A stretch of 64,000 nt of DNA, taken from assembly GCA_001899635.1 (NCBI GenBank), contig MKVQ01000023.1, forward strand, positions 99,815 through 163,814, written 5' to 3'. Shown here one piece after another: positions 8,507 through 59,099 of the stretch. Made by a program: the position numbers and the translations under genes. Position 1 is the first letter of the stretch; the number at the start of each line of letters is the position of its first letter. Origin of the DNA: Myxococcales bacterium 68-20. GTDB taxonomy: Bacteria; Myxococcota_A; Polyangia; Polyangiales; Polyangiaceae. Under the pieces are notes generated by a model. That model did not search any database. It worked only from the letters and a program-made list of their open reading frames with translations, and was not told the DNA's origin.

Positions 8507-8675
8507 CACGCTCGAGGATACCATCGCGAGCTCATCCTGGCCCGCTCCGATCGACCGCGCAGGATCCCCCCTCCACCGAGAACGGGCAGGCCGTGAATCA
8601 CGCCTCGAGCATCGACCTGGACTCCACGCCGCGCCGTGGCACGCGCGCTGCACGCGATCCCAGCAAAGGTCCATC

Positions 8676-11522
8676 ATGTACAGCATCGCGCTGCTCGGGC
8701 TCCTCGCGCTCGCGACGGCCGCTCTCATGCGCGGCATCCGTCGGAAGAGCTGGGCGGCGATGGTCGTCGGGCTGGGGATCGCCACGGCGACGCTCGTAGT
8801 GTTCGGCTTCTTCAGCTTCTGGGGTGAGATGCTCTGGTTCGAGGAGCTCGGCTTCCTCGAGCGCTTCTGGACCGTCGTCGGCGCGACCGCCGGCATCGCC
8901 GCGGCCGCCGCGCTGCTCGCGGCGGCGCTCGTCGGGCTGATCACGCTCCCCACGAGACGCTACGCGCGCCGCCCGAGGCAGATCGGGATGGCGGTAGCGG
9001 CCGGCGCGGGCGCCGCGTGGGGAGCAGCGAGCTGGAGCCTCGTCCTTCGCTGGGCGATGGGCGAGTCCACCGGACAGCGCGAGCCCATCCTCGGACGCGA
9101 CACAGGCTTCTACCTCTTCACGCTGCCGTTCTACGACGCGCTCTTCTCGCTGTTGCTCCTCATCGTGCTCATAAGCGCGATCGTGGCGGCTTGGTCGACC
9201 CACGGCGCACGCCCGCCCGTCGATCTCCGCCTCCTCAAGCCGGGCGACGCCGCTCTCCCGCTCCCACGACCACGACTGCGCCGCGGCAGCGCTCAGCCGA
9301 TCCATGTCGTCGCCGGCGCGGTCGCGCTCGTTCTCGCGACGTGGTGCCTACTCGCTCCGTATCACCTCCTCTATTCCACCGTCGGCACCGTCCACGGCGT
9401 CGGCTGGACGGATCAGCACGTCCGGCTACCAGCGTACTGGGTGCTGGCGGTGCTCCTCGCCGTGTCCGGCCTCGTGCTGCTCGTTCCGCGGACCAGGCGA
9501 GCGCTCGAGAGCCGCGTCCGCCGTCGTCTTCCGCGCGGCTACCGTTCGTCGCTCGCCGTCATCGCAGTGCCGGCGGCGATCGTCGTCACGGCCGGCGTCG
9601 TCGGGCTCGGGGCCCTCCCTGCCCTCGCGCAGTGGCTCGAGGTCCGACCGAACGAGCTGGCTCTCGAGCGCCCGTACATCGCAAACTCGATCGCCTTCAC
9701 GCGAAAGGGGTTCGGTCTCGATCACGTCGAGGAGCGCGAGATCGACCTCCAGACCGACTCGCTGTCCCCGGAGCTGCTCGAGGCGAACGAGAAGCTCCTC
9801 TCGGAGGTGCGGCTCTGGGATCCTCGCGCGCTCCACCAGGTGCTTCAGCAGTTCCAGTCGATCCGGCTCTACTACGAGCTCACGAACGTCGACATCGACC
9901 GTTACACCGTCGACGGGCGCTACCGGCAGATGATGATCGCGCCGCGGGAGATGCAGACCGCGAACCTCCCGGAGGGCAGCCGCACGTTCGTGAACCAGCA
10001 CTTCCAGTACACGCACGGCTACGGCCTCACGATGGCCCCGGTGAGTGACTTCACCAAGGACGGCCTCCCCGAGCTCGTGGTCCGCGATCTCCCTCCGGTC
10101 TCGGACTACCCGTCACTCCGCGTCGAGCGCCCCGAGATCTACTACGGAGAGCTCACGAACGACTTCGTCGTCGTGAACACGCGCGCGCCCGAGTTCGACT
10201 ACCCGTCGGGCGCAGCGAACGTCTACACGCGCTACGAGGGACGCGGCGGCGTCGAGCTGCGCGGGCTCCTCCGCCGGCTCGCCTTCGGCTGGAAGCTCGG
10301 CGGCACTCCGCTCCTCGTCTCCGACTATCCGAAGGACGACAGTCGGATCATGTTCTATCGGAACATCCACGAGCGCGTGGCGAAGGTCGCTCCGTTCCTG
10401 CTCCTCGATCACGACCCGTACATCGTGCTCGTCGACGGCCGGCAGAAGTGGATCGTCGATGCCTACACGACCTCGACGTACTTCCCGTACAGCGAGACCC
10501 TCTCCGACGCGACCTCGGGACGAGGGTTCGCCGAGCCCGAGCAGTGGGTCGGCAAGGAGATGTCGAGCCCGCTCTCGGGCGTGAACTACGTCCGCAACTC
10601 CGTCAAGGCGGTCGTCGACGCCTACGACGGCACGGTCACCCTCTACGTGTTCGACCCCGAGGACCCAATCATCCGCGTCTGGCAGCGCATCTTTCCGAGC
10701 CTCTTCCAACCGGCGAGCGAGATGCCTGCAGGGCTCCGCGCGCACGTGCGCTACCCCGAGGAGCTGCTGAACGCGCAGGGCCTCGTCTACGCCAAGTTCC
10801 ACATGACGAACCCCGAGGTCTTCTACAACCAGGAAGACCTCTGGGTCCGTGCCCGCGAGCAGCGGCGCAGCGGCCTCGGCGTGGTCGATCCGTATTACGT
10901 GATGTGGCAGGCGCCGGGCTCGGACCGCGCCGAGCTGATCCTGATGCAGCCGTTCACGCCGCGAAACCGGCAAGTGCTCATCGGCTGGATCGCCGGGATG
11001 TGCGACGGCGACGACTACGGCCGCCTCCTCGCCTATCGCTTCTCGAAGGACAAACGGATCATCGGACCGCAACAGGTCGACACCAAAATCGATCAGTCGC
11101 CCGAGCTGTCCGCGCAGCTCACGCTCTGGGACCAGCACGGCAAGCAGGTCATTCGCGGCAACATCCTCGCGATCCCGATCGAACAGTCGCTCCTCTATGT
11201 GGAGCCGATCTACCTCCAGGCCGAGGCCGCCGCGTATCCGGAGCTGAGGATCGTGGTCACGATGCACGGCGACCACATGAGCTATGCCCCGACGTTCAAA
11301 GACGCGCTCGCCGGGCTCGTCTCCGGCGGCGGCGGCGCGCTCGCCCAGGCGTCGCTTCCGGCAGCCACCTCGGAGGCGCTCGAACACGCGCGGCGCGCCT
11401 TCGAGGAGTACCGGAAGCTCACCGCCGAAGGCCGCTTCGAAGAGGCGGGCGCGCGACTCCGCGCCGTCGGCGAGGCGCTCGCGCCTGCGCTGCCTGCAGA
11501 CCGCGCGCTGCCGATGCGATGA
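8676..11522 (+). CDS. UPF0182 family integral membrane protein
   Basis: 948 residues, within the usual range for this family. The N-terminal 320 residues carry about seven transmembrane segments (for example ALLGLLALATAALM, GLGIATATLVVFGFFSF, ALFSLLLLIVLISAIVAAW). They are followed by a large extracytoplasmic domain with family-type stretches such as WLEVRPNELALERPYIANSI and LILMQPFTPRNRQVLIGWIA. Start chosen at the ATG preceded by AAAGG. The family (COG1615) is widespread in high-GC bacteria and uncharacterised, so no function is claimed. It is divergent from the M15 peptidase and appears to be a single-gene unit. Confidence 0.92.
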   Translation: MYSIALLGLLALATAALMRGIRRKSWAAMVVGLGIATATLVVFGFFSFWGEMLWFEELGFLERFWTVVGATAGIAAAAALLAAALVGLITLPTRRYARRPRQIGMAVAAGAGAAWGAASWSLVLRWAMGESTGQREPILGRDTGFYLFTLPFYDALFSLLLLIVLISAIVAAWSTHGARPPVDLRLLKPGDAALPLPRPRLRRGSAQPIHVVAGAVALVLATWCLLAPYHLLYSTVGTVHGVGWTDQHVRLPAYWVLAVLLAVSGLVLLVPRTRRALESRVRRRLPRGYRSSLAVIAVPAAIVVTAGVVGLGALPALAQWLEVRPNELALERPYIANSIAFTRKGFGLDHVEEREIDLQTDSLSPELLEANEKLLSEVRLWDPRALHQVLQQFQSIRLYYELTNVDIDRYTVDGRYRQMMIAPREMQTANLPEGSRTFVNQHFQYTHGYGLTMAPVSDFTKDGLPELVVRDLPPVSDYPSLRVERPEIYYGELTNDFVVVNTRAPEFDYPSGAANVYTRYEGRGGVELRGLLRRLAFGWKLGGTPLLVSDYPKDDSRIMFYRNIHERVAKVAPFLLLDHDPYIVLVDGRQKWIVDAYTTSTYFPYSETLSDATSGRGFAEPEQWVGKEMSSPLSGVNYVRNSVKAVVDAYDGTVTLYVFDPEDPIIRVWQRIFPSLFQPASEMPAGLRAHVRYPEELLNAQGLVYAKFHMTNPEVFYNQEDLWVRAREQRRSGLGVVDPYYVMWQAPGSDRAELILMQPFTPRNRQVLIGWIAGMCDGDDYGRLLAYRFSKDKRIIGPQQVDTKIDQSPELSAQLTLWDQHGKQVIRGNILAIPIEQSLLYVEPIYLQAEAAAYPELRIVVTMHGDHMSYAPTFKDALAGLVSGGGGALAQASLPAATSEALEHARRAFEEYRKLTAEGRFEEAGARLRAVGEALAPALPADRALPMR

Positions 11523-12182
11523 GCCGACGTCTCCGGCCCGAGAAGAGCTCTGTTGCACCGAACCGTATGCGGAGCGTGTACTTCCACCGAGCTTCGAGAG
11601 GCACGAGGGCGCCGTCTTCTTGACGGAACGATGCCAGCCGCGACGTGACGCTGGACTGGGTCTGGGGGCTTGGCCCCACTTGCCGCAATCTTTCAGCCAC
11701 TTCAGGCACGAGTTGGGGACACCGACGAGGACGACGGATACTGAGGCTGTCCATCACGAGCCCGAGGCCAAGCGGCTGCCACCGACACACGGCGCGACGC
11801 GAAGCGCGTCATCATGAGATCAGGCCCACCCGAAATGCGTGGATGGCTGGCGCATGCATCTCCATGGCTGGCCTCCTCGCTTGAACCTTCGGGCGCGTCT
11901 ACGGCTGAGCACGGTTTGCCGTGACTCGTTGCGATCGAGGCAGCCGCATCATCGAATCTGCATCGGCGCCAGCCACTCATTCCATATCCGACCACGATTT
12001 CCAATTTCGCACTTGACGACATTCGGGTCGACTGCCGACGCAAAAGCGCCGGCGAGCGCTTCGACCAGACCGTGCTGGCACAGAGTTGCGTCCTGTTCAG
12101 CGATCGCGCGCAAAAGGCTTCGCAACGTGATCGGAACGTTGCTCGCCTGCGGACGGGGTCTTCCCGTGAGGCGCGAAAGTGC
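11523..12182. other. 660-bp gene-poor spacer
   Basis: No complete gene is supported. A minus-strand stretch (11949-12185) stays open for 78 codons in a protein-like way (for example VPITLRSLLRAIAEQDATLC and GRIWNEWLAPMQIR). It has no start codon upstream of its stop-bounded edge and lower third-position GC than neighbours. It may be a decayed gene end or chance. Confidence 0.3.
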
Positions 12183-13679
12183 ATGTTAGAAGCGGTCATG
12201 GACAAGCTGGGGGACGTATCCGACGAGGAGCTGCTCGCGCGCCTGTGTGGGCATGTCGGCAAGGGCAACGTCTGGTGCGCGGAGCTCATCGCGTACCTCG
12301 TCGAGGTCGACGAGCGAAGGCTCGATCGCATTCACGCATGCTCGTCGATGTGGGACTTCTGCACGCGCAAGCTCGGGATGAGCGAGGGCGAGGCACACCG
12401 CCGGATCGCGGCGGCTCGCACCGTCCGACGCTTCCCCCAGGTGCTCGGGGCCATCGAGCGAGGCGAGGTCCACCTCTGTGCGCTCTACGTGTTGCGGAAA
12501 CACCTCACGAGTGACAACGTCGACGAGCTGCTCCACGAGGCGTCCGGCAAGAGCACGCGGGAGGTCGAGAAGATGGTGGCCGCACGCTTTCCGCGTCCGG
12601 ACGTACCGGCGTGCGTCGAGCCCGTCGCGCCGCAGGCGCTGTTGTCGCCGGTATCGCCGGTCTCCGTCGCGACGCCGTCGCCGGTGTCCATCGCGATGCG
12701 TTCCGATGCAGGGTCCGCGTGGTCTCTGTCGCTGGCGGCGTCGCCCGGACCTCGACCGAGGGTCGAGCCGCTCTCGGCGACGAGGTACCGAGTCGAGCTC
12801 ACCGTGAGCGCCACGACGAAGGAGACGGTCGACCGCATCAAGGACCTGATGCGCCATCGCAACCCGACTGGCGATTTGGAGGCCATCCTCGACGCGTCGC
12901 TCGCGCTGCTGCTCGCCCAGCTGGAGAAGGAGCGGCTGGGCAAGACGCCTCGTCCAGGTGGCAGAAGGCGCAAGCCTGCCGAGGCGACGAATGCATGCGT
13001 TTCGTCCGCCTCGGCGCCTGCGGAGATCGCGACTCGAGCTCCGCCCCCGCCCCTTGGTGTGGAGGCGACGGCGGGCGATCCGGACGTCCCCGTGCGCGCG
13101 GAGACCAGGACGCAGTGGCCATGCGCGCAGGTGCACGCCGACGCGCCCAGCGGCGACCAGGACGCGTCGACGTTTGGGCCCGTGATTGCCAGGCCGAACA
13201 TGGGGGAGCGAGCCACGTCCGCGCCTGCAACGAAGGCGTCGCGACCGGGCTCTCGGTATATCCCAGCAGAGCTACGGCGGGAGGTCTTCGCGCGAGATGG
13301 CACGCAGTGCACCTACGTCGGGCCTGACGGAGGTCGCTGCCCCGCGCGCGGATACCTCGAGCTGGATCACATCCACCCGAAGGCACGTGGAGGGACGCAG
13401 ACGGCAGCCAACCTGCGCGTGAGGTGCAGAGCGCATAACGCGCTCTACGCCGAACAGGTCTTCGGCCGCGCGCACGTCGCAGGCCGCATGGACTTGCGAC
13501 GCCACAAGTGCGCGCCCTCTACAGCGGCCTCCTTCGAGATCGCCGCACGAGGTCTGCGGTCCATGGGCTTTCGCGAGCCCGAAGCGCGTCGAGCGCTCGA
13601 GACGCTAGCGACGAAGCCCGATATCGACGGCGCTCCCGTCGAAACGATCCTCCGCGAGGCGCTGCTCGTTCTCACGTAG
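12183..13679 (+). CDS. HNH endonuclease domain protein
   Basis: 498 residues from MLEAVMDKLG (ATG at 12198 is an alternative). The N-terminal 190 residues are helical, with motifs SDEELLARLCGHVGKG and LHLCALYVL-type repeats common to myxobacterial HNH proteins. A variable, Ala/Pro/Ser-rich and probably disordered middle of about 170 residues follows. The C-terminal nuclease domain has SRYIPAELRREVFARDGTQC, LELDHIHPKARGGTQT and LRVRCRAHN, the DH...N...H metal-binding core. Metal-dependent DNA cleavage is expected; the biological target is unknown. Proteins of this kind often occur in many copies per genome and may be associated with mobility, which fits its position next to a duplication scar. 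Confidence 0.88.
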   Translation: MLEAVMDKLGDVSDEELLARLCGHVGKGNVWCAELIAYLVEVDERRLDRIHACSSMWDFCTRKLGMSEGEAHRRIAAARTVRRFPQVLGAIERGEVHLCALYVLRKHLTSDNVDELLHEASGKSTREVEKMVAARFPRPDVPACVEPVAPQALLSPVSPVSVATPSPVSIAMRSDAGSAWSLSLAASPGPRPRVEPLSATRYRVELTVSATTKETVDRIKDLMRHRNPTGDLEAILDASLALLLAQLEKERLGKTPRPGGRRRKPAEATNACVSSASAPAEIATRAPPPPLGVEATAGDPDVPVRAETRTQWPCAQVHADAPSGDQDASTFGPVIARPNMGERATSAPATKASRPGSRYIPAELRREVFARDGTQCTYVGPDGGRCPARGYLELDHIHPKARGGTQTAANLRVRCRAHNALYAEQVFGRAHVAGRMDLRRHKCAPSTAASFEIAARGLRSMGFREPEARRALETLATKPDIDGAPVETILREALLVLT

Positions 13680-13782
13680 CCCTCACGCAGCAACGCCGAC
13701 CCGCTCGAACCGGGTGACACCAGCGTACCCGTGCTCCGCTCGCCGCGCGCTGGCCCCCGCTCGCTCATCGTCGATGCCCAGA

Positions 13783-13810
13783 CACTTGCGACATCGCGAC
13801 ATCGCAAGTG
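13783..13810. repeat. Short perfect hairpin beside the duplicated fragment
   Basis: Arms CACTTGCGA and TCGCAAGTG (9 bp, perfect) around a 10-nt loop. It ends 2 bp before the left copy of the 48-bp direct repeat. No T-run follows, so it is not a typical intrinsic terminator. It could be part of the rearrangement junction. Confidence 0.45.
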
Positions 13811-13812
13811 CG

Positions 13813-13860
13813 TGCCTCCGACGACGAGCGTGTAGTCCTCGACCGCCTGCAAGGCCTCGG
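13813..13860 (+). repeat. 48-bp direct repeat, left copy (fragment of TPR gene)
   Basis: Identical over 48 bp to 23543-23590, in the same orientation. On the minus strand it encodes EALQAVEDYTLVVGG, part of the C-terminus of the TPR lipoprotein gene at 23490-24368; here it is an orphan scrap. The two copies flank cassette B. Spacing between copies is 9,730 bp. Confidence 0.9.
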
Positions 13861-13961
13861 GGCCGGGTGCTCGCGCACCATTTCGGTTGGCGCGCTAGTA
13901 AAGCCGGGGCAAGCTCTCCGATGGAGTCGTGATCGTGTGCGGCCGGCGCGAGCGCGTTCGA

Positions 13962-15008
13962 ATGAAGGGACGCTCCGGCGCGCTCGCCTCGATGGTGCGA
14001 CGGATCGCGACCGCGGCCACGCTCGCCGGGCTCGTCTTGTCCGCTCGACCCGTGCTCGCTGCGTCCGGCTCCTTCGCCATCGTATGGCCGGCGTCGACCG
14101 ACGAAGCCTGCGTCGAGCCGGCGGCGCTGAAGGCCGCCGTCGTCGCGCGCCTCGGACACGATCCCTTCGTCGACGCGGAGCTCGCCGAGGTAGTGCTCGA
14201 GGGCCAGGAGCTCGCGCCGTCGAGCACGGGCCGCCGCCGGGCGCGGCTCGAGCAGCGCGACCACGAAGGGCACGTCCTCGGCACGCGCGACCTCGATGCG
14301 GCCAGCTGCGGCGAGCTCATGCGCTCCGCCGCGTTCGTGATCGTGCTCATCGTCGATCCCGACGCGCTCCTCCGGGAACCGGCTCCGGCACCGACGACGC
14401 AGCCCGAAGCCCCGCCGCACGCAGAGCAGCCCGAAGCTCCGGCGCTCCGCCGCGTCGTCGAGCCGCCTCGGCCGCCGCCACCTTCCCCGCCCCGACCGCC
14501 GCTCTTGGATGCTGGAGCAGGGATCTCGTACGGGCGCGGCCTCCTGCCGGGCGACGACATCGGCGGCGCGGTCACCGTCGGCCTCTCTCCCTGGAACGCT
14601 CCGCTGCGCTTCGACTGGCGCGGCAGCTATCGTGCTTCGCTCGGGACGCCCCGCCGCCAGCAGTTCTCTGCGCTCATGCAGGAGTGGCGCGCCTGCGCCG
14701 TCGTCGGTCGGCATGGCCTGCTCGGCGGGGCCGCATGCGCCGGCGGCGCATGGAGCGCGGTCCTTCCCGAGGCTCGAGGACTGGCCGACGGGGACCGAGC
14801 TGGGAAGGCGGTCTTCGGTCCGCTCGTGGCGCTCGGGCCGACGTTGAGGGCGGGCGGCCTCACGGTGGCCGCCGACGTGACGCTCTTCTTTCCACGGCCG
14901 CGCTGGGCGTTCTCATACGAGGACGAGGCCGGTCGCGTACGCACGCTGCACGAGCTCGACCGTATCGTCATCACCACGACGATTTCCGTGACGCGTACGT
15001 TTCGGTGA
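13962..15008 (+). CDS. Secreted two-Cys domain plus barrel-like protein (cassette B, gene 1)
   Basis: 348 residues from MKGRSGALAS; a GTG frame at 13929 adds 11 residues. The signal peptide ends RPVLAASG. The mature domain of about 100 residues has ACVEPAALKAAVVARLGHDP, a GRRRARLEQRDHEGHVLG strand pair and a second Cys (AASCGELM). A long Pro-rich linker (PPRPPPPSPPRPPL) leads to a C-terminal region of amphipathic strands ending RIVITTTISVTRTF, as in outer-membrane barrels, which usually end in Phe or another aromatic near the C-terminus. Same layout as the genes at 3224 and 56648. No named family recognised. It lies 33 bp before the sigma gene; an envelope sensor role is inferred. Confidence 0.75.
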   Translation: MKGRSGALASMVRRIATAATLAGLVLSARPVLAASGSFAIVWPASTDEACVEPAALKAAVVARLGHDPFVDAELAEVVLEGQELAPSSTGRRRARLEQRDHEGHVLGTRDLDAASCGELMRSAAFVIVLIVDPDALLREPAPAPTTQPEAPPHAEQPEAPALRRVVEPPRPPPPSPPRPPLLDAGAGISYGRGLLPGDDIGGAVTVGLSPWNAPLRFDWRGSYRASLGTPRRQQFSALMQEWRACAVVGRHGLLGGAACAGGAWSAVLPEARGLADGDRAGKAVFGPLVALGPTLRAGGLTVAADVTLFFPRPRWAFSYEDEAGRVRTLHELDRIVITTTISVTRTFR

Positions 15009-15041
15009 AAATCGGGACGGACTGCAGGCCATCTACCTGTA

Positions 15042-15623
15042 GTGACCGAGGCCGTGTCCGGAAGAGCGCTTCTACCCTCGTCGACGGTGGCATCGACACC
15101 CGCCGTCGAAACGCGGGTCGCGTCCATCTTCCGCGAGCATGGTCGCTACGTCGTCCGCCTCTTGAGGCGGCTCGGAGTGGCCGATGCCGACATCGACGAC
15201 GTCTTCCAGGAAGTCTTCGTCATCGTCCATCGCAAGCTCCCAGAGCTCGACGCGAACGTCGTGCTCCGAGCGTGGGTGTACGGGATCTGTCTTCGCAGGG
15301 CGGCGAACTACCGAAAGCGAAATCGAGCACGAAAGGAGATCCCGACCGAGGAGGCGATCGAACACGTCGAGGTCGATCCGAAGTCGCCGGCCGAGGCGAT
15401 CGACGCGAGGAAGGCTCGCGCGATCCTCGAGGACATCCTGCGCGGTCTCCCGGACGAGAAGCGCGAGGTCTTCGTGCTCTACGAGATCGAAGAGCTGCCC
15501 ATGCAAGAGGTCGCCGATGCCGTCGGCTGCCCGCTCCACACCGCGTACTCGAGGCTCTACGCCGCGCGAAAGCTCATTCACGAAGGCATCCGGCGCGCAC
15601 GCGCACAAATGGGCAACCGATGA
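15042..15623 (+). CDS. ECF-family RNA polymerase sigma factor (cassette B, gene 2)
   Basis: 193 residues, GTG start. Region 2: ADIDDVFQEVFVIVHRKL with RAWVYGICLRRAANYRKR. Region 4: EKREVFVLYEIEELPMQEV followed by the helix-turn-helix ADAVGCPLHTAYSRLYAARK. It is closer to the cassette C sigma (shared ELPMQEVA/GLPMQEVA and TAYSRL) than to the cassette A one. Its stop overlaps the next ATG (ATGA at 15620-15623), indicating coupled production of sigma factor and anti-sigma-like protein. The target promoter could not be identified from the sequence. Confidence 0.93.
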   Translation: MTEAVSGRALLPSSTVASTPAVETRVASIFREHGRYVVRLLRRLGVADADIDDVFQEVFVIVHRKLPELDANVVLRAWVYGICLRRAANYRKRNRARKEIPTEEAIEHVEVDPKSPAEAIDARKARAILEDILRGLPDEKREVFVLYEIEELPMQEVADAVGCPLHTAYSRLYAARKLIHEGIRRARAQMGNR

Positions 15624-16387
15624 ACGAACCTCCCTTCGACCCGACTGACGAGGCGCTGCTCGAACAAGCGGTGCGGAGCATGCGCGACGAACTGCCGAGC
15701 GACGCGCGGATGGATCGACTCGAGCGCCGCCTCGCGCCGGTCCTCGCCACCGGTGCGCCATCGGACCGATCGTGGCACGGCCGATACTTGCCGCTCGTCG
15801 CGGGTGCCGCGATCGTGATGGCCGGTGTCATCGCGGGCACGAGTCATCAAAACGACGTGGCGCCAGGTGCCTCCGCTTCCGTCCCCGTCGAGGCTGTGCC
15901 GCCTCCGACCGCTGCGTCGCCGACCGTCACGACCGAGCCTCGCGACGAGTCTCCGCCGGTGATGCCCGTCGTCACCGTCGACTCGCTCCCCTCCCTCCCC
16001 TCGCCCCCGTCCGCTGCATCCCAGCGGAGCCGGACCGCGCCGGAGCGGAGCACGAAGGGCTTGGCGGAAGGCCGGCCGGACAGCCCGACGTCACCGGACA
16101 GGCCGGCGGCCGATCCGGGTGACGAGCTCGCGCTCCTCGAGGAGGCGCGGGCAGCGCTCGCGACCGCGCCGACGCGGACGCTCACGCTCGCCGACGAGCA
16201 CATGAAGCGCTTCTCGAGCCCGGCCTTCGCGCAGGAGAGAGAGAGACTCGCGATCGATGCGCTGGTGCGCGGCGGTCGCCGCGACGAGGCGGCGGAGCGC
16301 GCCAGGCGCTTCGAGTCGACGTATCCGAGCTCCCCGCATCTCGCGCGCGTTCGGGCGCTCGTCGCCCCTCCGCCAGCAGCCCCCTGA
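15620..16387 (+). CDS. Anti-sigma-like membrane protein (cassette B, gene 3)
   Basis: 255 residues. The cytoplasmic N-terminus, about 55 residues, includes LLEQAVRSMRDELPSDARMD. One transmembrane helix follows (YLPLVAGAAIVMAGVIAG), then a long Pro/Ser/Thr-rich periplasmic linker. The C-terminal TPR-like helices read LALLEEARAALATAP and RLAIDALVRGGRRDEAAERA and end YPSSPHLARVRALV. No zinc-binding anti-sigma motif. Placement after the sigma gene with an ATGA overlap supports a role in holding the sigma factor at the membrane until a periplasmic signal arrives (inference). The linker is compositionally biased and differs between copies while both ends are conserved. Confidence 0.78.
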   Translation: MNEPPFDPTDEALLEQAVRSMRDELPSDARMDRLERRLAPVLATGAPSDRSWHGRYLPLVAGAAIVMAGVIAGTSHQNDVAPGASASVPVEAVPPPTAASPTVTTEPRDESPPVMPVVTVDSLPSLPSPPSAASQRSRTAPERSTKGLAEGRPDSPTSPDRPAADPGDELALLEEARAALATAPTRTLTLADEHMKRFSSPAFAQERERLAIDALVRGGRRDEAAERARRFESTYPSSPHLARVRALVAPPPAAP

Positions 16388-16405
16388 TCGTCGAGGAGAC
16401 ATCAC

Positions 16406-17626
16406 GTGAGAAAGAACATGACCGCGTCGAGGACACTCTCGGCGTCGCTTCTGCTCGCGACCGCCACGGCGCTCGCGTCGGCCTGCAGCACGGAGACGAG
16501 AGCCGTGTATCTGGGCCGCGAGGACCCAGTGCCGACCTTTACGTCACCCGACGCAGGTGACGACGCCGAAGCATCGAGCTCGGACACAACGACGAGCTAC
16601 TGCCCCTCGAACATGTGTCCCCCGAGCCACACGACCTGTCCATCATCGCAATTCCTCTGCGACGTCGATCTACTCACGAATCTGGACAACTGCGGAGAAT
16701 GCGGAAACGAGTGCCCGGACAATGGCAAGTTCGTCTGCGCCGAAGGCCGCTGCCTGTTGAGCTGCAACCCGCTTCAAGAGCTCGACTGCGACGGCATTCC
16801 GGATAACGGATGTGAGGCGAGTCCCTTTTCCAATGACAACTGCGGATATTGCGGAAACAAGTGTCCCGCGGACAAGCCGTGCATCCAACGCAAACTGGGT
16901 GCTTATGGATGCGGTTGCAATCCGGGCGAGATTCTCTGCGGAGGCTCGTTCCTTCCATGCGTCAATCCGTCTGACGATGACGGCAACTGCGGCGCCTGCG
17001 GCAACGCCTGTCCGCCCGGAGGTGACGGGATCTTCGAGGCGCCGCCGAACATGTACTTCGGCTGCTTCGCCGGCGCGTGCGGGACGTTGAAGTGCGCCGG
17101 GCTCTCCGGCAACTGTGACGGCAACGCCGACAACGGCTGCGAGACCTCCCTTCTGGACGACGACAACTGCGGTGCCTGCGGAAAACGATGCGAAGACGGC
17201 ACGACGTGCGGTCTGAAGCCTTCGCTCGCCGGGTTCACACCGATGTGCATGTGCCCCAAGGGATCGACGTTCTGCGGGAGTTTCGTCACCCAAGGAGGCT
17301 CCGAGGTCGTCCAGATGGGCGACTGCCGCGATCTCTCTTCGGACGACCGCAACTGCGGAGGATGCGGGACCGTTTGCTCCACGTCGCAGCCGAACTCCAC
17401 CATGGCTTGCGTCTACGGAAAGTGCGAATCGTCGTGCCGCGCCGGCTGGGGCGACTGCAACGGCAGCCCCACTGACGGTTGCGAGACCAACATCTCGTCC
17501 GACCCGAAGAACTGCGGCGGCTGCGGGATCGTCTGCGACGGCATCGCCGGTCAGGCGTGCGTCGACGGTCGATGCATGGTCGAGCCGTGCGACGAGCCTC
17601 AGGATGCTGGAGGACCACCGCGATGA
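16406..17626 (+). CDS. Cys-rich (Stig1-like) lipoprotein, cassette B gene 4
   Basis: 406 residues from a GTG preceded by GAGGAG. Signal ends ATALASACS, a good lipobox. The mature protein has an Asp/Ser-rich spacer, then YCPSNMCPPSHTTCPSSQF and repeated NCGxCGxxC modules (NCGECGNEC, NCGYCGNKC, NCGACGNAC, NCGGCGTVC), ending AGQACVDGRCMVEPC. Cysteine spacing closely follows the genes at 487 and 59100. Expected to be lipid-anchored and rigidified by disulfides. ATGA overlap with the next gene. Function unknown. Third-position GC is visibly lower than in the flanking sigma and propeller genes because of many AAC, TGC and GAT codons in the modules. Confidence 0.9.
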   Translation: MRKNMTASRTLSASLLLATATALASACSTETRAVYLGREDPVPTFTSPDAGDDAEASSSDTTTSYCPSNMCPPSHTTCPSSQFLCDVDLLTNLDNCGECGNECPDNGKFVCAEGRCLLSCNPLQELDCDGIPDNGCEASPFSNDNCGYCGNKCPADKPCIQRKLGAYGCGCNPGEILCGGSFLPCVNPSDDDGNCGACGNACPPGGDGIFEAPPNMYFGCFAGACGTLKCAGLSGNCDGNADNGCETSLLDDDNCGACGKRCEDGTTCGLKPSLAGFTPMCMCPKGSTFCGSFVTQGGSEVVQMGDCRDLSSDDRNCGGCGTVCSTSQPNSTMACVYGKCESSCRAGWGDCNGSPTDGCETNISSDPKNCGGCGIVCDGIAGQACVDGRCMVEPCDEPQDAGGPPR

Positions 17627-18843
17627 AGACGACTTGGCTCGTCACCGTCACCGGGACGGCGTGCGCACTCGCCATACTCGCAGCATGCGCGACCGACGGC
17701 GAGACGCCCACGGCGCTCTCGGACGACGCGAGCACGCCTTTGCCGCCACCTGCCTCCGACGCAGGCGGCGACGCGGAGACCGGCGAAGACGCCTCGGTCT
17801 GCGCCGACGACTGCGAGTACTACCCGAACGAGTGCACCGACGACGCGCTCTGCGAAAGTGCGCTCTTCGGCGGCGCAGTCGCGACGCCGGAGACGCTGGA
17901 CGTGCGCACTCATGTCCAAGCGATCGCCGCCCGGTCGCCGACCGATGCATGGCTGGTCGGAACCGTCGGCGCAGCCGCGCACTTCGACGGCACGTCGTGG
18001 AAGCGGTCCGCAACGGACACGCAGTATTCCTACCGCGCGCTCTGGCTCCGCGGCGACGCCGAGATCACCTTCCATGATCTGAAGCAGCTCTTCACGCGCG
18101 GCCTCGATACCGACGCGGGAGCTCCGTCCGCCGGGGGTTGGTCCCTCTTCGGCTCGGCGACGATCCATCCGGTCTGGACAAGCTCCAATCCGAGTCTTCG
18201 GACGTCGTGGGCTCACGCGGAGTCGACGTCGCTCTGGCTCGGCGTGACGGCTGGGTTGGGCACGAGCCGTGGCGGGCTCTGGCGATTGCGACAGGCCGCC
18301 AACGGAAGCTTCGCTGTCACGCCGGCGACGCTCGACAAGTGCGGGGTGAACGGGACGATCCCGTGCGCGGAGGTCTATGGAATCAGCGGTCGCTCCGCCG
18401 ACGAGATCTGGGCCGTCGGGCCGCGAGGTGCCGCGTTCCGCGTCACGAACGCCGAGGCCGACGAGCCGACGCTGACCGGCTTCGAGACCGACACGCTCAC
18501 GGCGCTCCAAGCCGTCTGGGTCGCCGGGACGAACGACGTCTGGGCCGTCGGGGCGTCCGGCACGGTGCGTCGCTGGCGCGGAGATCCACGCTTGTTCGAG
18601 ACGTACAACGAAGTGCCGACGCAGCAGCACCTCCGCGCGATCGCCGGCTCGTCGCCGAGCGACATCTGGATCGCCGGAGACGAGGGCACCGTCTTTCACT
18701 ACGACGGCACCGCCTGGAGCCGCGTGAAGGTCGCCGGCCTCGACGGACGACGCCCGCACCTCGAGCACATCTGGGTCCCCTCGCCGGGAAACGTCTGGAT
18801 CGCCGGACGAGGAGCGCTCCTGTCGCTCGGAGGAAAACCATGA
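17623..18843 (+). CDS. WAVG-repeat beta-propeller lipoprotein (cassette B, gene 5)
   Basis: 406 residues. Lipoprotein signal ends AILAAC (Cys22). After an acidic spacer comes a Cys cluster (CADDCEYYPNECTDDALC), then about five propeller-type repeats, including SPTDAWLVGTVGAAAHFDG, RSADEIWAVGPRGAAFRV, GTNDVWAVGASGTVRRW and SPSDIWIAGDEGTVFHYDG. It ends PSPGNVWIAGRGALLSLGGK. The repeats resemble BNR/kelch-like blades seen in many myxobacterial surface proteins; no sialidase catalytic residues are evident. Overlaps both neighbours by ATGA. Paralogues: the partial gene at 1-490 and the gene at 60302. A binding or scaffold role at the cell surface is inferred. Confidence 0.87.
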   Translation: MKTTWLVTVTGTACALAILAACATDGETPTALSDDASTPLPPPASDAGGDAETGEDASVCADDCEYYPNECTDDALCESALFGGAVATPETLDVRTHVQAIAARSPTDAWLVGTVGAAAHFDGTSWKRSATDTQYSYRALWLRGDAEITFHDLKQLFTRGLDTDAGAPSAGGWSLFGSATIHPVWTSSNPSLRTSWAHAESTSLWLGVTAGLGTSRGGLWRLRQAANGSFAVTPATLDKCGVNGTIPCAEVYGISGRSADEIWAVGPRGAAFRVTNAEADEPTLTGFETDTLTALQAVWVAGTNDVWAVGASGTVRRWRGDPRLFETYNEVPTQQHLRAIAGSSPSDIWIAGDEGTVFHYDGTAWSRVKVAGLDGRRPHLEHIWVPSPGNVWIAGRGALLSLGGKP

Positions 18844-20153
18844 GAACGATCATCGTCCTCGCGTCCGCCGTCGCATCGGTCGCGATCGCGTCTGCCTGCG
18901 CGCGCTCCGAAGAGGAGCCTTCGGCCGGCGCCGATCCGCACTCGCCGACCGCGGTCCCCGACGGCGGCGCTGGCGATGACGCCGACGGCTCCGTCGCCGA
19001 CGTCGACGTCCCCGATACTCGTCTTCCCGACTGCAGCCCTGCAGGGTGGTGCATCACCGGTTTCCCGGACGAAGACCTCGTCTTCCGTGACATCGCGCCT
19101 CTCGATGGGGTCGCCTTCGCTATCGCCGACAGCCCGACCGAGGGCATCAAAGTCCTCGAGTGGACCAAGTCGACGAACACCTGGAAGTACATCGACGACG
19201 GCACGCAGAACCAGCCGCCCATCGGCACGTTCGCCGGTCGCATCTATGCCCCGAACGTCGACGACGTGTACTTCACGGTTGGGCCGTCGTCCGTCTTTCA
19301 CGGCGAACGCTTCGGTGGCACCTGGACGTGGACGAAGCAGGCTCTCCCGGACAGCATCGCCGGCCACACGGATAGTCACGGGAATCCGACCCAGCGCGCC
19401 AGCGGGCAGCCGATCACGACGCTCGGCATCTGGGGAACGGGCGCAGGCGACGTCTATGCGTATTACAGCAACACGATCTTCCACCGTGATCCGGCTAGCG
19501 GAACCTTCGCCACGGTGTACGTCGCCGGCGATCTCGGGACCGCCGACGAACACATCTTCTTCACGTCCGTCCACGGAAGCGGTCCGAACGACGTCTGGTT
19601 CGTCGGCGCTCGTGCTCGGACGAATACCAACTGCCCCCTCATCGTCCGGAAGTCCGCTGCCGATTGGGAGCGCGTCGCCGATAGCGTAGTCTCGACCAAC
19701 ACCAACGCGCCGTGTGCCCAGCGTCCGGGGACGCTGTTCATCGGCGGCGGCAAGGGCGGGTGGCTCGTCGACATCGCTCCGGTGTCGACGACCGAGTACG
19801 TCGCGCTCCACAACAGAGTTAGCGGGTTCACTTTTGAGGACGCCTACGCCACGACGATTCGCGTCACGGACGATGGATACTCGTTCGAGCAGTCGCTCGT
19901 CCCAGTGACGATCGCCCCCGCTGCCACCAACAGTCCCAGGAGCGCGACCGCGCTCTGGCGAGGTGACGGCGAGACGTGGTTCACGTCGTGGGGACTCGTC
20001 CTCCGCGGGAGCGATGACGGCACGTTCTCCGTCTCGACGCTCTCCCGCAGCGGCGGGCCGGTCATTGCTCCGTTCTACAGGATCCGCGGCACCTCGAACC
20101 AAAACCTCTGGGCAATCGGAGCGCGCCATGCGTACCACAAGACGACTCCTTGA
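18840..20153 (+). CDS. Second beta-propeller lipoprotein (cassette B, gene 6)
   Basis: 437 residues. Signal ends SVAIASAC followed by an Asp/Glu-rich spacer (DGGAGDDADGSVADVDV). The body has PAGWCITGFPDEDLVFRDIA, blade-like repeats (VYAYYSNTIFHRDPA, GPNDVWFVGARARTNT) and a terminal blade IRGTSNQNLWAIGARHAYHK. The paralogue at 61480 shares SDAGWC, EDVYAWYANTIFHW and the same final blade. Its last 26 nt overlap the start of the RCC1-like gene in a different frame, an arrangement also found in cassette C. No enzymatic motif seen. Surface lipoprotein of unknown function. Confidence 0.85.
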   Translation: MRTIIVLASAVASVAIASACARSEEEPSAGADPHSPTAVPDGGAGDDADGSVADVDVPDTRLPDCSPAGWCITGFPDEDLVFRDIAPLDGVAFAIADSPTEGIKVLEWTKSTNTWKYIDDGTQNQPPIGTFAGRIYAPNVDDVYFTVGPSSVFHGERFGGTWTWTKQALPDSIAGHTDSHGNPTQRASGQPITTLGIWGTGAGDVYAYYSNTIFHRDPASGTFATVYVAGDLGTADEHIFFTSVHGSGPNDVWFVGARARTNTNCPLIVRKSAADWERVADSVVSTNTNAPCAQRPGTLFIGGGKGGWLVDIAPVSTTEYVALHNRVSGFTFEDAYATTIRVTDDGYSFEQSLVPVTIAPAATNSPRSATALWRGDGETWFTSWGLVLRGSDDGTFSVSTLSRSGGPVIAPFYRIRGTSNQNLWAIGARHAYHKTTP

Positions 20154-21591
20154 AGCGGAGGCTCGCTCCAGCGTCGCTGAACCGAGTCCACGCGATACCG
20201 ATACTGCCCGGCGAACGCGTCGCCCGATCGCCGCGCGCGTACCCGCGCTGCTCGCGCTCGTCACGAGCCTCGCGACCGTGGCCGGCATGACCACGAGCTG
20301 CTCGAGCAGCGACGACGACGCCCGAGAGCCCCTACCGGGGGACGCGGACGGCGGGGCGGATTCCGCTCCCGAGGCCGAGCGAGAAGACGTCATCGATGCC
20401 GGCATCGCGGATGTCGTGGTCGTCGACAGCGCACCGCTGCGGATCGAGTGCAAGGAGCCCCCCTGCGCGATTGCGCTCTCGACGACCACCACGACGTTCT
20501 CGTCCCCGGCAACGAACGACGAGGGCTATTGCGCGCTCCTCGACGACGGCACGGTGGCATGCTGGGGAGCGAACGCAGATGGCCAACTGGGGAACCCGGA
20601 GGCGATCGGTGCCAGTCCGGTTCCAATGCGTGTGTCGGGCCTCTCGAAGGTCACGGCGCTCGACCACACGTGCGCGGTCGACAGCGATGGCTCGGTCTTC
20701 TGCTGGGGACGAGGCCCCTTCCTCCAGAGCGAGGCGTCGGTGCAGACGGTGGAGACCAGCCCCGTTCGCCTGCCATTGCCTGGTCCCGCGACGAAGGTCG
20801 CCTTCAACACCTTCAGCAACTCCTACGGCGTTGGCTGCGCCATTCTTCGCGATGGGAGCGTGGTCTGCTGGGGCTCGAATGCATACTGGCAGCTCGGCGA
20901 AGGCGTCTCGCAGTCGGTGCGCAACGCCCAGCCCCTGGCGATCGAGCGCGCCTTCGGGGCCAAAGACATCGCCGTCGGGAATGCCACGTTCGCGATCGAC
21001 GGCGACGGTGCGATGAAGAGCTGGGGTTCGGCCATCGGCATCGGACGTCCGATCGCCCTCGACTACAGCGGGTGGCCCACGAACGTGGCGCTCGACCACG
21101 TCTCGATGCTCGATACCATCGGAGGAGAGGCGTGCGCCGTCGCGAACGGCATCGGCTGGTGCTGGGGCCCGAATGACGAGCGGAAGGCCGCCTTCGGAAC
21201 CACCTACGCACGCGCGCTGCCATCCGCGGTCGACACTCCCGAGCCGATCACGCGCATCGCAACGTCGCGAACGGTGAGGGGGAGTGTGGACTCCGTTCTG
21301 TACTTCCACAGGCGTCGCTGGTGCGCAACGTCGGTCACCGGCGCGGTGTACTGCTGGGGACTCAACAATGCCGGTCAGGCGGGGGACGGCACGAAGGAGT
21401 TCGCGCTCGAACCCGTCCAGGTCGCGGGGCTGCCGGCGCCGGCAGCCGAGGTGAAGGTCATGCCTTATTCGACGTGTGCAATCCTGACGAATGGCAAAGT
21501 GTATTGCTGGGGAAGCAACTTCTACGGCCAGCTCGGCGCCGGACTTCCGAGAGGAAGCGTGCTCCAGCCGGTGGAGGTGAAGCTTCCATGA
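20128..21591 (+). CDS. RCC1-repeat lipoprotein (cassette B, gene 7)
   Basis: 487 residues from the ATG inside the previous gene (MRTTRRLLEAEARSS). The signal ends GMTTSCSSSDD after a hydrophobic ALLALVTSLATVAG. The body is a seven-bladed-type propeller of RCC1 repeats: DGTVACWGANADGQLG, DGSVFCWGRG, DGSVVCWGSNAYWQLG, GAVYCWGLNNAGQAG and GKVYCWGSNFYGQLG. Bacterial RCC1-type proteins are mostly secreted and of unknown ligand. The odd long N-terminal region (about 30 polar residues before the hydrophobic core) is forced by the overlap and also occurs, shorter, in cassette C. Overlaps the next gene by ATGA. Confidence 0.88.
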   Translation: MRTTRRLLEAEARSSVAEPSPRDTDTARRTRRPIAARVPALLALVTSLATVAGMTTSCSSSDDDAREPLPGDADGGADSAPEAEREDVIDAGIADVVVVDSAPLRIECKEPPCAIALSTTTTTFSSPATNDEGYCALLDDGTVACWGANADGQLGNPEAIGASPVPMRVSGLSKVTALDHTCAVDSDGSVFCWGRGPFLQSEASVQTVETSPVRLPLPGPATKVAFNTFSNSYGVGCAILRDGSVVCWGSNAYWQLGEGVSQSVRNAQPLAIERAFGAKDIAVGNATFAIDGDGAMKSWGSAIGIGRPIALDYSGWPTNVALDHVSMLDTIGGEACAVANGIGWCWGPNDERKAAFGTTYARALPSAVDTPEPITRIATSRTVRGSVDSVLYFHRRRWCATSVTGAVYCWGLNNAGQAGDGTKEFALEPVQVAGLPAPAAEVKVMPYSTCAILTNGKVYCWGSNFYGQLGAGLPRGSVLQPVEVKLP

Positions 21592-23390
21592 GGCGCGCGC
21601 GGTTCTCCTTCGGCGCGTTCGGCGCCGTGACTTCGCTCGGCGTCGTCTTCGCGCTGATCGCTGCCTGCGGCGACGATCGCGGCGGCTTCATCCAGAACGA
21701 TCGTACATTCGAAGCGCAGCCCGAGGCAGGAGCTCCGGACGCCGAGACCTGTTTCCGCCAGTGCTCGCTCGACGGTCGGTCGATCATCGACTCGTGTACG
21801 GGCGGCGTGGTCGAGACGTGCGCCGACGATCTCGCCTGCGGCGCCGCCAAGTGTCAGGAGCCGTGCGCAGCGGCGGAGGCCGACCGAAGCTCGAACGGTT
21901 GCGACTTCTACTTCACGACGCCCAAGACGACTTTCGCGAACGTCTCGTGCTTCGCGACGTTCGTCGTCAACGCGTCGAACAAGCCGGCCACGGTGTCTCT
22001 CGAGCTGCGAGGTGAAGAGCTCGACCTGTCGGGTGCGCTCTTCCGAACCGTGGCGAACAGCACCGACCTCGAGCCGCTCAACGGTCCCATCCCCCCAGGA
22101 GAGAGCGCGATCCTCTTCGTCGCCGACTGGGACCCCGACAAACCGCGCTCGATCTACGAGAAGGGGCTCCATTCCTCTTGCCCAGAGCAGGCAAAACCCG
22201 CGCTCGAGGCGGACTTCGGGTTCTTCGAGGCCGGCATCGGCGACGCGTTCCGCCTGAAGAGCAATGTCCCGGTCGGCGCCACGTGGATGTATCCGTACGG
22301 TGGCGCCGACACGATGTACCCGACGGCCACGCTCCTGATGCCGGTGAGCGCATGGGCGAAAGAGCACGTCGTCGTCAACGGATGGGAGGCACAAGGTTCC
22401 GACACGAGGCCGGTGACGCAGATCTTCGCGGCCGAGGACGAGACGGAGGTCACGATCCTCGGGACCAAGGACGTCAGGAACGGAGACGGCTTCACGGGCG
22501 CTCCGGCCGGGATGCCGGTGAAGATCATGCTGTCGAAGGGCCAGTTCGTGCAGATCGCACAGAGCGAGGAGCTCACCGGCAGCTTCGTCTTCTCCAACAA
22601 GCCGACCGTGACCGTCGGTGGAACCGAGTGCACGTACTTGCCGTGGGAGGCGGAGGCTTGCGATACGCTCGCGCAGCAGATCCCAGCCTTCGAACAATGG
22701 GGGTCGGAGTACGTCGGCGTCGGTTACCGACCGCGCGCCGTGAGCACCGACGAGATCGTGTGGTACCGCATGGTCGGCAGTCGCGACGGCACGGAGCTCG
22801 AATACGATCCCGTGAAGCCGCCCGGTGCTCCGCTCACGCTCGACGCGGGCGAGCTCGTCGTCTTCCGTGCGCGCTCGAACGACGCGTTCGTCGTCCGCGC
22901 CCGCGGCACCGAACATCCGTTCTACCTCGCCATGCTCATGACGGGAGGCAAGGGCCATCCCCCTGACGTGCCGGGTTACGGAGGCATGGGCGATCCGGAG
23001 TTCGTCAACGTCGTCCCGTCGGGCCAGTACATGAGCTCCTACAGCTTCTACGCGGACCCCTCGTACCCCGAGCACTCTCTCGTGCTCGTCCGAAAGAAGA
23101 CGCACGGCGACTTCAAGGACGTATGGCTCGAGTGCGCCGGCAACCTCCCCGAGTGGACGCCGATCGACAACGCGGGGGAGTACGAATACAGGCGCGTCGA
23201 TCTGTCGCGCAAGTTCGGTCCCGGTGACTCGTTCGGCGACAAGCGGTGCACGACGGGGCTCCAGCGCATGCGGAGCGAGGGTGCATTCTCCGCGACGCTC
23301 TGGGGCTGGGGCCCGTACGCCAGCTACGCGTATCCGGGCGGCATGGCGAACCGCAAGCTCGTCGACACGCCGCTCTCGTTGGTGAAGTGA
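21588..23390 (+). CDS. IgGFc-binding-domain-like lipoprotein (cassette B, gene 8)
   Basis: 600 residues. Signal ends FALIAAC (lipobox). A Cys-rich segment (ETCFRQCSLDGRS to CGAAKCQEPC) is followed by a large beta-rich domain. Its sequence (LLMPVSAWAKEHVVVNGW, VTQIFAAEDETEVTILG, LSKGQFVQIAQSEELTGSF, FSNKPTVTVGGTECTYLP, MGDPEFVNVVPSGQYMSSY) resembles the N-terminal domain of IgGFc-binding proteins (PF17517-type), found in many myxobacterial surface proteins. It closes cassette B, and a hairpin lies 15 bp downstream. Cassette A and C copies, if present, are outside the window. A role in adhesion is inferred from the domain. Confidence 0.8.
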   Translation: MRRARFSFGAFGAVTSLGVVFALIAACGDDRGGFIQNDRTFEAQPEAGAPDAETCFRQCSLDGRSIIDSCTGGVVETCADDLACGAAKCQEPCAAAEADRSSNGCDFYFTTPKTTFANVSCFATFVVNASNKPATVSLELRGEELDLSGALFRTVANSTDLEPLNGPIPPGESAILFVADWDPDKPRSIYEKGLHSSCPEQAKPALEADFGFFEAGIGDAFRLKSNVPVGATWMYPYGGADTMYPTATLLMPVSAWAKEHVVVNGWEAQGSDTRPVTQIFAAEDETEVTILGTKDVRNGDGFTGAPAGMPVKIMLSKGQFVQIAQSEELTGSFVFSNKPTVTVGGTECTYLPWEAEACDTLAQQIPAFEQWGSEYVGVGYRPRAVSTDEIVWYRMVGSRDGTELEYDPVKPPGAPLTLDAGELVVFRARSNDAFVVRARGTEHPFYLAMLMTGGKGHPPDVPGYGGMGDPEFVNVVPSGQYMSSYSFYADPSYPEHSLVLVRKKTHGDFKDVWLECAGNLPEWTPIDNAGEYEYRRVDLSRKFGPGDSFGDKRCTTGLQRMRSEGAFSATLWGWGPYASYAYPGGMANRKLVDTPLSLVK

Positions 23391-23405
23391 TGGCTGCCCG
23401 CGCCG

Positions 23406-23436
23406 CTGCGCGTTAGCGAGGATCGCCGACGCGCAG
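23406..23436 (+). terminator. Candidate terminator of cassette B
   Basis: Inverted repeat CTGCGCGT / ACGCGCAG with a 15-nt loop, starting 15 bp after the last cassette B stop codon. No T-run, so only a weak candidate; high-GC myxobacterial terminators often lack one. Confidence 0.35.
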
Positions 23437-23489
23437 GGCCCGTCGCGAGACCGGCCTCCTTCGAGGCTGCGACCCGAGCCCGGAGCGCG

Positions 23490-24368
23490 TCAGCGGCAGC
23501 TGCTCGAATACGAAGTCGCGAGTCGGACCGAGCGAGGATCGCTGCCTCCGACGACGAGCGTGTAGTCCTCGACCGCCTGCAAGGCCTCGGCGCAGCGGCC
23601 GGCGCTCTCGAGCGCTCGCGCGCGCCCCCAGACCGCGACCGAGCGTCCCCAGCGATCGGTCTCGCCGAACTGCCGCTCAGCGCGCGCGAACGCGGCCACG
23701 GCCTCGTCGGTTCGACCGAGAGCGGCGAACGCCGCGCCGACGTTGTAGTCGATCCACGGGTTCGGCGCCGCCTCGGGCGGGACCTTGTCCTTCAGCGCCA
23801 GCACCTGCGAGTAGTTCCCGGAGCCGAGCGCGCTCGTCATCTCCGAGAGGAGCGCGGCCTCGGGCGATGGCGGGGCCTGCGCCGCACGGCATTGCGTTGC
23901 GTAGGTCATGGCCATGTCGGCGGCGGGAGCGTCCTTCGAGCGCACGAGCGCCGCGAACTGCTCGTAGGCGCGCTTCGCCTCGTCACATTGCCCGACATCG
24001 TCGAGCGCGCGAGCGCGCCCGTAGATCGCGAGCGACCGGCCCCAGCGATCTTCGCCGAACTGGACCTCCGCGTTCTGGTAGGCGGCGACAGCGTCTCCGG
24101 AGCGACCCAGATGGTGCAGCGCGGCGGCCCGGTTGTAGAGCGCCCACGGATTGTTGGGCGCCAGGCGAACGGCGTTGTCGGCACGAGCGAGCGCATCGGT
24201 GTACTTGCCGAGCGTCACGTCTCCGGCCGCCGCCTCCGCCTCTCGGTAGCCGGTCTGCATCTGCGCGCTCGTGATCTCGGTCCGCTGCGAAACCTTGGGC
24301 CGCGCTGCGCATCCACCGAGCAGCAGGGCGGTGGTGACTGCGAACGCGATCGTCGTGGCTCGGATCAT
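23490..24368 (-). CDS. TPR lipoprotein
   Basis: 292 residues from MIRATTIAFAV. Lipobox ALLLGGC. Helical repeats: YREAEAAAGDVTLGKYTDAL, PWALYNRAAALHHLGRSGDA and RWGRSLAIYGRARALDDVGQ, then the second half repeats the plan (NPWIDYNVGAAFAALGRTDE, RWGRSVAVWGRARALESAGR). It is thus an internally duplicated array of TPR units carrying the RWGRS..WGRARAL signature twice. A scaffold or interaction role at the outer membrane is typical. A 48-bp piece of its 3' end is copied at 13813-13860 on the other side of cassette B. Divergent from the PhoX-like gene. Confidence 0.88.
   Translation of the reverse strand: MIRATTIAFAVTTALLLGGCAARPKVSQRTEITSAQMQTGYREAEAAAGDVTLGKYTDALARADNAVRLAPNNPWALYNRAAALHHLGRSGDAVAAYQNAEVQFGEDRWGRSLAIYGRARALDDVGQCDEAKRAYEQFAALVRSKDAPAADMAMTYATQCRAAQAPPSPEAALLSEMTSALGSGNYSQVLALKDKVPPEAAPNPWIDYNVGAAFAALGRTDEAVAAFARAERQFGETDRWGRSVAVWGRARALESAGRCAEALQAVEDYTLVVGGSDPRSVRLATSYSSSCR
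23543..23590 (+). repeat. 48-bp direct repeat, right copy (inside TPR gene)
   Basis: Identical to 13813-13860 in the same orientation. It lies within the 3' part of the intact TPR gene, so this copy is the likely source. Confidence 0.9.
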
Positions 24369-24504
24369 CTCGGTGCTCCTCGGCAACCTCGACTGCATCG
24401 GCGGTGCCATGCGAGCTCGACGGATGTGCCGGCCGGCACGCGCCGGAGAACCGCACGGCGGACGCGAATCTCCCGGGCTCGGAATCGAGACTCGACGGGG
24501 CTTT

Positions 24505-33828: not shown

Positions 33829-33905
33829 GCGCGACGCGCCGCGAAGGCGCAACTCAGTTGCGCCGATCCTGGAAGCTCGTAGCGGTCGGCTCACACGAAC
33901 ACGCT

Positions 33906-33960
33906 TTGACCGGAGATTCACGCCCGCTCGCCCAACGGGCGGGCGTGAATCGGAGGTCAA
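33906..33960. terminator. Long near-perfect hairpin between convergent genes
   Basis: Outer arms TTGACC/GGTCAA, a 3-nt mismatched bulge on each side, then 13-bp perfect arms (GATTCACGCCCGC / GCGGGCGTGAATC), and an inner GCCC-AAC-GGGC. It lies between the kinase stop (33828) and the convergent stop at 33984. Probably a two-way terminator, though no T-run is present. Confidence 0.6.
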
Positions 33961-33983
33961 TGCAAAGTGAGCACCGCAATAGC

Positions 33984-56497: not shown

Positions 56498-56647
56498 GCG
56501 GTCAGCCAGGCGCCGCTCGGCCGGCCGACTTCCGCCGCGTGCCTGTCGCGCGTAACGGATCCGTCTGCCCGCGAAATGCCCCCACACGCGAAGAGCTCAT
56601 GCGCTCGGAGCGGTATGCCGCGGTCGGGCTGATGTAGAGTCGGCCGA

Positions 56648-57721: not shown

Positions 57722-57743
57722 TAATGCGACCCCGCGTGGGGCA

Positions 57744-59038: not shown

Positions 59039-59099
59039 CGACGCCCGAGATGTCCGATCCGAAGACTCTTTCCAACCCGTTCGTCAGCAGCGAGTGAGC

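Follow-up and report, generated by a model that had tools for sequence, protein, structure and literature searches.

A perfect 48-bp direct repeat in a 64,000-nt stretch of Myxococcales bacterium 68-20 DNA (contig MKVQ01000023.1, 99,815-163,814, forward strand; assembly GCA_001899635.1), hereafter the window, is best explained as a junction scar left by error-prone repair at the tail of an HNH nuclease gene, and not as a functional repeat. We put the probability of this reading, which extends to a second case at locus L066, at about one half. The original prediction had described the repeat and missed that its left copy, a scrap of a TPR protein gene, adjoins a dispersed HNH element.

Identity and uniqueness of the 48-bp pair

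The two copies agreed at 48/48 positions in the same orientation with their starts 9,730 bp apart, just as had been reported, and the identity ended abruptly on both sides without a single base of extension at either end. The pair was the longest exact repeat within the window, and a chance origin of 48 identical bases is excluded. When the GC-rich assembly of the organism itself (11,892,454 bases, 11.9 Mb, in 52 contigs) was searched with 13680-13960 and 40 of the 125 first-look candidates were scored, the high-identity matches were limited to the query itself and 23543-23593, and the next-best place covering the 48-mer stretch, on contig C12, was 76% identical over ∼67 bp. Many unrelated copies elsewhere would have spoken against the original prediction; among the scored candidates no third copy was found. 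A 12-mer near the right edge of cassette B (Table 1), flush with the 48-mer in its TPR-gene version, was set aside as weak (chance of 0.0016 for a single window, and ∼1% by estimate after allowing for choices).

Table 1. Features of the window bearing on the 48-bp repeat.
Feature	Positions	Strand	Basis or remark
Membrane protein gene, 948 aa	8676-11522	+	NCBIfam PRK02509, hypothetical protein; tblastn
Span common to HNH copies (gene plus ∼110 bp per side)	11962-13792	+	blastn, nhmmer; left end fuzzy (nhmmer start 11921)
HNH nuclease gene, member of the dispersed family	12072-13679	+	tblastn against own genome; HNH and RuvA_C profiles slightly under threshold
Hairpin-forming stretch of 28 nt (arms of 9 bp) separating the HNH tail from the scrap	13783-13810		Seen in the sequence
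Left 48-mer copy, a derived scrap of the TPR gene	13813-13860		Exact match without extension; none beside the orthologous cassette of G005
Cassette B: genes for an unknown first protein, an ECF sigma factor, and STIG1-like, RCC1, and IgGFc-binding proteins	13935-23391	+	Pfam, NCBIfam; 82.8% nt identity, colinear with G005 contig C319
12-mer, possible second small scrap	23415-23426		Identical to 23531-23542, the 12 bp adjoining the 48-mer in the TPR gene
TPR protein gene, 306 aa, source of the scrap	23490-24410	-	Pfam TPR_16 and others; orthologues at 78% aa identity in G005 and G006
Right 48-mer copy, native, near the TPR 3' end	23543-23590		Orthologous sequence with 11/48 (G005) and 8/48 (G006) mismatches

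Comparison with relatives supports the right copy as native

The right copy lies inside an intact TPR gene and the left copy is isolated; the ORF and its Pfam matches bore out the earlier observation on this point. The translated TPR protein contains a lipobox-like LLLGGC. Within the gene the 48-mer occupies the stretch 53-100 bp before the end, that is, an internal piece rather than the very end, and the last 53 bp of the gene, stop codon included, are intact and contiguous at the right copy, next to cassette B. At E ≤ 1e-15, TPR matches were present in 4 of the 12 same-genus genomes (the organism's own, G005 and G006 at 78% aa identity, and G004 at 46%), and the same four were recovered at E ≤ 1e-40 among 108 family genomes. 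The stretches orthologous to the 48-mer have diverged in G005 and G006 (Table 1) but the window pair is identical; the copying was therefore recent and occurred in the organism's own lineage. The right copy is the native one, and the left copy is a derived, recent insert.

At the TPR site of G005 and G006, the intact TPR gene directly faces a match to the N-terminal ∼175 aa of the large membrane protein (presumably UPF0182-like), with ∼81 and ∼48 bp, respectively, between the matched parts. Neither cassette B nor the HNH gene is present at either site, and the lack of the cassette is what had been predicted for an empty site. The membrane-protein gene is full-length in the window, and only its first ∼175 aa were matched by tblastn next to the TPR gene in these relatives. 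This gene may have gained DNA on the one side or lost it on the other, so at the window locus the relatives show the absence of the HNH gene and cassette B, and not a perfect pre-insertion site.

A dispersed HNH element adjoins the left copy

Between the stretch shared among the HNH copies and the start of the left copy lie ∼20-30 bp, counted from the 3' end of that stretch; the hairpin at this junction was absent from 15 other HNH loci when up to 7 substitutions were allowed. In the organism's own genome, tblastn located 38 pieces of the HNH gene at 18 places. The gene is mostly complete at 12 of these, and at the 11 besides the window copy the best piece per place was 75-85% identical. Ten aligned copies share a conserved HNH core, with D432, N447, and H455 invariant and H433 nearly so, and these copies are under moderate purifying selection (median dN/dS of 0.40 over 45 pairs). 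For the window protein, the Pfam and NCBIfam matches to HNH, RuvA_C, and IscB-type HNH profiles were all sub-threshold, and DUF222 was not matched by any of the 10 copies at E ≤ 1. PADLOC gave no match. We found no tblastn match to the gene in 359 kb of G004-G006 DNA or in 80 kb of other same-genus loci. Genome-contig searches, with either the HNH protein or alignment A1 as query, likewise returned no relative; the collections searched may omit the organism's own and very close records. Among the papers listed for DUF222/13E12, for HNH repeats of myxobacteria, and for templated insertion in bacteria, none dealt with this HNH family.

Several HNH copies carry degenerate tandem partial duplications of the 5' leader or of the C-terminal/3' part. 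At L069 (∼8512-9288; contig C43), and also at L070 and L067, partial C-terminal copies follow the main gene copy in tandem, and neighboring units at L069 are 95-98% alike. Two candidate signals were rejected. One was a putative HNH remnant, a sequence at 23452-23478 on the right edge of cassette B that resembles the HNH C-terminus (nhmmer E of 0.77); the other was a shared GCGA-N2,3-TCGC motif, which was present at four junction pieces and in none of 12 other HNH tails.

A second scrap at locus L066

The order seen in the window, namely HNH tail, scrap of a convergent neighbor gene, other DNA, and the intact neighbor, recurs at L066 on contig C33. There the scrap begins at the end of the repeated HNH tail copy, with a 4-bp overlap, and its 309 bp are 98% identical (303/309) to the interior of the facing S-formylglutathione hydrolase gene (TIGR02821). 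It is followed by ∼1.2 kb of lower-GC DNA (GC of 0.61 compared with 0.69 for the locus), and the intact gene, convergent to HNH, lies 1.9 kb on. The scrap is closer to this gene (98%) than to the relatives' genes (88%), so it too was copied in the organism's own lineage. In G005 the flanking convergent genes are 71 bp apart and the 4.8-kb block of HNH gene, scrap, and filler is missing, and G006 has 6.7 kb of other DNA at the site. In the window as at L066, the sequence becomes similar to that of the relatives again from the 3' end of the convergent gene onward.

Local copies at HNH loci and in control DNA

We compared stretches with themselves and counted local copies of at least 40 bp with at least 97% identity that lay >500 bp apart. 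There were 2 such copies in 358 kb (15 HNH-bearing loci, some of them fragments only, plus the window), both at an HNH tail, and 0 in a 400-kb control of 20 arbitrary stretches; since the HNH loci were chosen for HNH, this comparison is not a formal test and the excess of scraps at HNH tails is suggestive. Falling below the 97% line, and so uncounted, were a 50-bp repeat of 94% at L068 in a gene that we take to be ABC-type, a 61-bp repeat of 95% inside the HNH copies of L069, and closely spaced tandem repeats. The control stretch L130, which lacks HNH, holds repeat pieces of 238 bp (93%) and 76 bp (96%) between 1242-1564 and 6147-6532, ∼4.9 kb apart.

Genome-wide searches with other HNH 3' flanks covered 10 of 13 (7 whole and 3 shortened, without L071-L073), and 40 of the 408 first-look candidates were scored. 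They gave one more single-partner match of at least 90%, at L060 (57 bp, 91%, contig C20), perhaps an old remnant. A control search with gene flanks (9 of the 14 chosen, with scores for 40 of 886 candidates) returned no single-partner near-identical copy, and the control flanks at L064 and L065 had multi-partner or weaker matches of 75-86%. The control flank at L061 (G000 C24:140306-140605) proved to be a high-copy intergenic repeat that also touches the L064 flank. The window itself contains a 147-bp dispersed repeat at 33844-33990, found at 92-94% identity in L060, L137, and L138 and in part (62 bp) in L074.

Nine HNH sites were compared with G005 and G006. The anchor searches covered 25 of 27 anchors and scored 40 of 1602 candidates in one case and 40 of 1370 in the other; L061, L063, L064, and L070 offered no usable anchor pair, and L073 and L074 were left out. 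Both sides were found at 7 sites, whereas L065 and L068 were one-sided. The 7 two-sided sites lie in blocks of ∼2.6-7.3 kb in the organism's own genome. The corresponding gap in the relatives was ∼42-323 bp at L062, L066, and L072 (in G005) and at L069 (in both), and ∼1.1-2.1 kb at L067, L060, and L071. At three of these sites (L062, L066, and L072) the G006 gap is filled with other DNA (∼3.1, 6.7, and 3.1 kb) that gave no HNH match, so in that genome the spots vary even in the absence of HNH.

Cassette B at another place in G005

Contig C319 of G005 carries an orthologue of cassette B, 83% identical over 9.5 kb, among other neighbors, and the TPR gene of that genome is on contig C75; the cassette has thus changed place relative to G005. 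A protein flanking it in G005, which we take to be metalloprotease-like, had no match in the organism's own genome at E ≤ 1e-20. Within 35 kb around the G005 cassette, no stretch came within 14 substitutions of the 48-mer, so the scrap is not a fixed part of cassette B. The first gene of the cassette had matches of at most 39% identity in 7 other same-genus genomes and none in 3 of the 12, and cassette B was accordingly not seen in those genomes, the G006 genome being only 83% complete. Pfam searches of the 10 main ORFs (small ORFs left out) found no integrase or transposase. A second, diverged cassette lies at ∼56600-63950 of the window, parts of which match the G005 cassette-B contig at ∼67-77% nt identity.

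Discussion

In the reading that we prefer, a double-strand break would have occurred at or just past the HNH tail and been repaired without homology. Through a template switch, the HNH-side end would have copied a short stretch of the facing gene, and the lengthened end would then have been joined to other DNA, in this case cassette B or a segment that carried it; scrap and cassette may have arrived in one event. As a guess, the break was perhaps made by the HNH protein itself. The organism's genome has two Ku genes, which makes end joining plausible. The mark of a templated or capture-type repair junction, a short near-identical copy of nearby DNA at the breakpoint, was found at both places (48/48 in the window and 303/309 at L066). 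Microhomology at the switch points was mixed, with a 4-bp overlap at L066 and hardly any (0-1 bp) at the window junction, and the latter may speak against this reading. Also against it are the small number of HNH tails with a clear scrap (only 2), the pair of local repeats in the control stretch without HNH, and the variability of the L066 spot in G006 without HNH.

The final structure fits both templated filler and a duplication with later deletion and does not tell them apart. In the latter scheme a tandem duplication of ∼13861-23590, comprising cassette B and the 3' part of the TPR gene with a 23590/13861 junction, was followed by an imprecise deletion of the additional copy that left 48 bp, the HNH element being a bystander or the deletion endpoint. 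It predicts the direct orientation, perfect identity, and abrupt ends that were observed, tandem partial duplications do surround several HNH copies, and the same pair of steps would account for L066 as well. It requires, however, two events per locus, with the deletion ending at the HNH tail both times; we regard it as possible but doubtful. The original prediction held that cassette B brought the TPR piece with it while being copied or moved, and that recombination between the repeats could delete the cassette. The presence of the cassette elsewhere in G005 and its absence from the TPR sites of G005 and G006 fit such a move, and on these points, as on the native right copy and the derived left one, the interpretation is partly supported; its claim that the end of the TPR gene was carried along fared poorly, given that the scrap is internal to the gene and lacks the last 53 bp, sits on the cassette's far side from the TPR gene, and has no counterpart beside the G005 cassette. 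A scrap of an unrelated gene also lies at the L066 HNH tail with no cassette B between scrap and gene, and we consider the carried-along origin improbable. Excision of cassette B as a circle by recombination between the repeats is possible in principle.

Genomic islands with att repeats likewise place a gene block between perfect direct repeats, one of them in the 3' part of a gene, and that likeness is what speaks for site-specific integration or for transposition with a 48-bp target-site duplication. The repeat layout is nevertheless unfit: either process, like single-crossover integration, would leave the native TPR 3' end beyond the left copy, yet the HNH tail is there instead, and the native 53-bp end with its stop codon is contiguous with the right copy in the window as in G005 and G006. 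Target-site duplication, att integration, and single-crossover integration were rejected by this layout, and the 10 main ORFs scanned include neither an integrase nor a transposase; we judge this whole class of explanation very improbable. It is also unlikely that the repeat is an unrelated small intragenomic patch, or an assembly error, adjacent to HNH by chance. Short ectopic patches, such as those from short-patch double illegitimate recombination, are known in bacteria, and our literature search found no example of this kind. Against this explanation, both near-identical local scraps adjoin HNH tails and both 48-mers lie inside one 373-kb contig.

The HNH family resembles homing and other HNH endonuclease elements, such as the mycobacterial 13E12 (DUF222-HNH) repeats, in being a multi-copy nuclease gene scattered in one genome. 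It differs from them in that the copies lack a DUF222 match and, where resolved, sit in variable blocks between conserved genes, with no intron, intein, or cognate target shown. For the scrap itself, the closest parallels come from human cells, in which, according to PMC5087911, double-strand-break junctions contain partial duplications of break-adjacent sequence or ectopic pieces, some of at least 45 bp, for which template switching was proposed; those breaks were nuclease-induced, whereas here the setting is a bacterium and a nuclease origin of the break is conjectural. The model of microhomology-mediated break-induced replication, as outlined in PMC2621351, also yields complex junctions with short copied pieces in human copy-number variation; the likeness is in the copied pieces, and the difference is that little microhomology is present here.

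Neither an att site nor a hot spot for deletion should be read into the 48-bp repeat. A broader proposal, which we consider speculative and rather unlikely, is that the HNH elements are break-prone points of DNA capture: the nuclease would cut its own tail, end joining would copy bits of the neighboring gene and pull in cassettes, and the HNH copies would both mark and build variable blocks. If the link to HNH is true, this would be a dispersed nuclease gene whose edges gather copied scraps and captured DNA, and it would give a way to study, at the level of sequence, how large genomes of bacteria acquire blocks of genes when neither transposases nor integrases take part.
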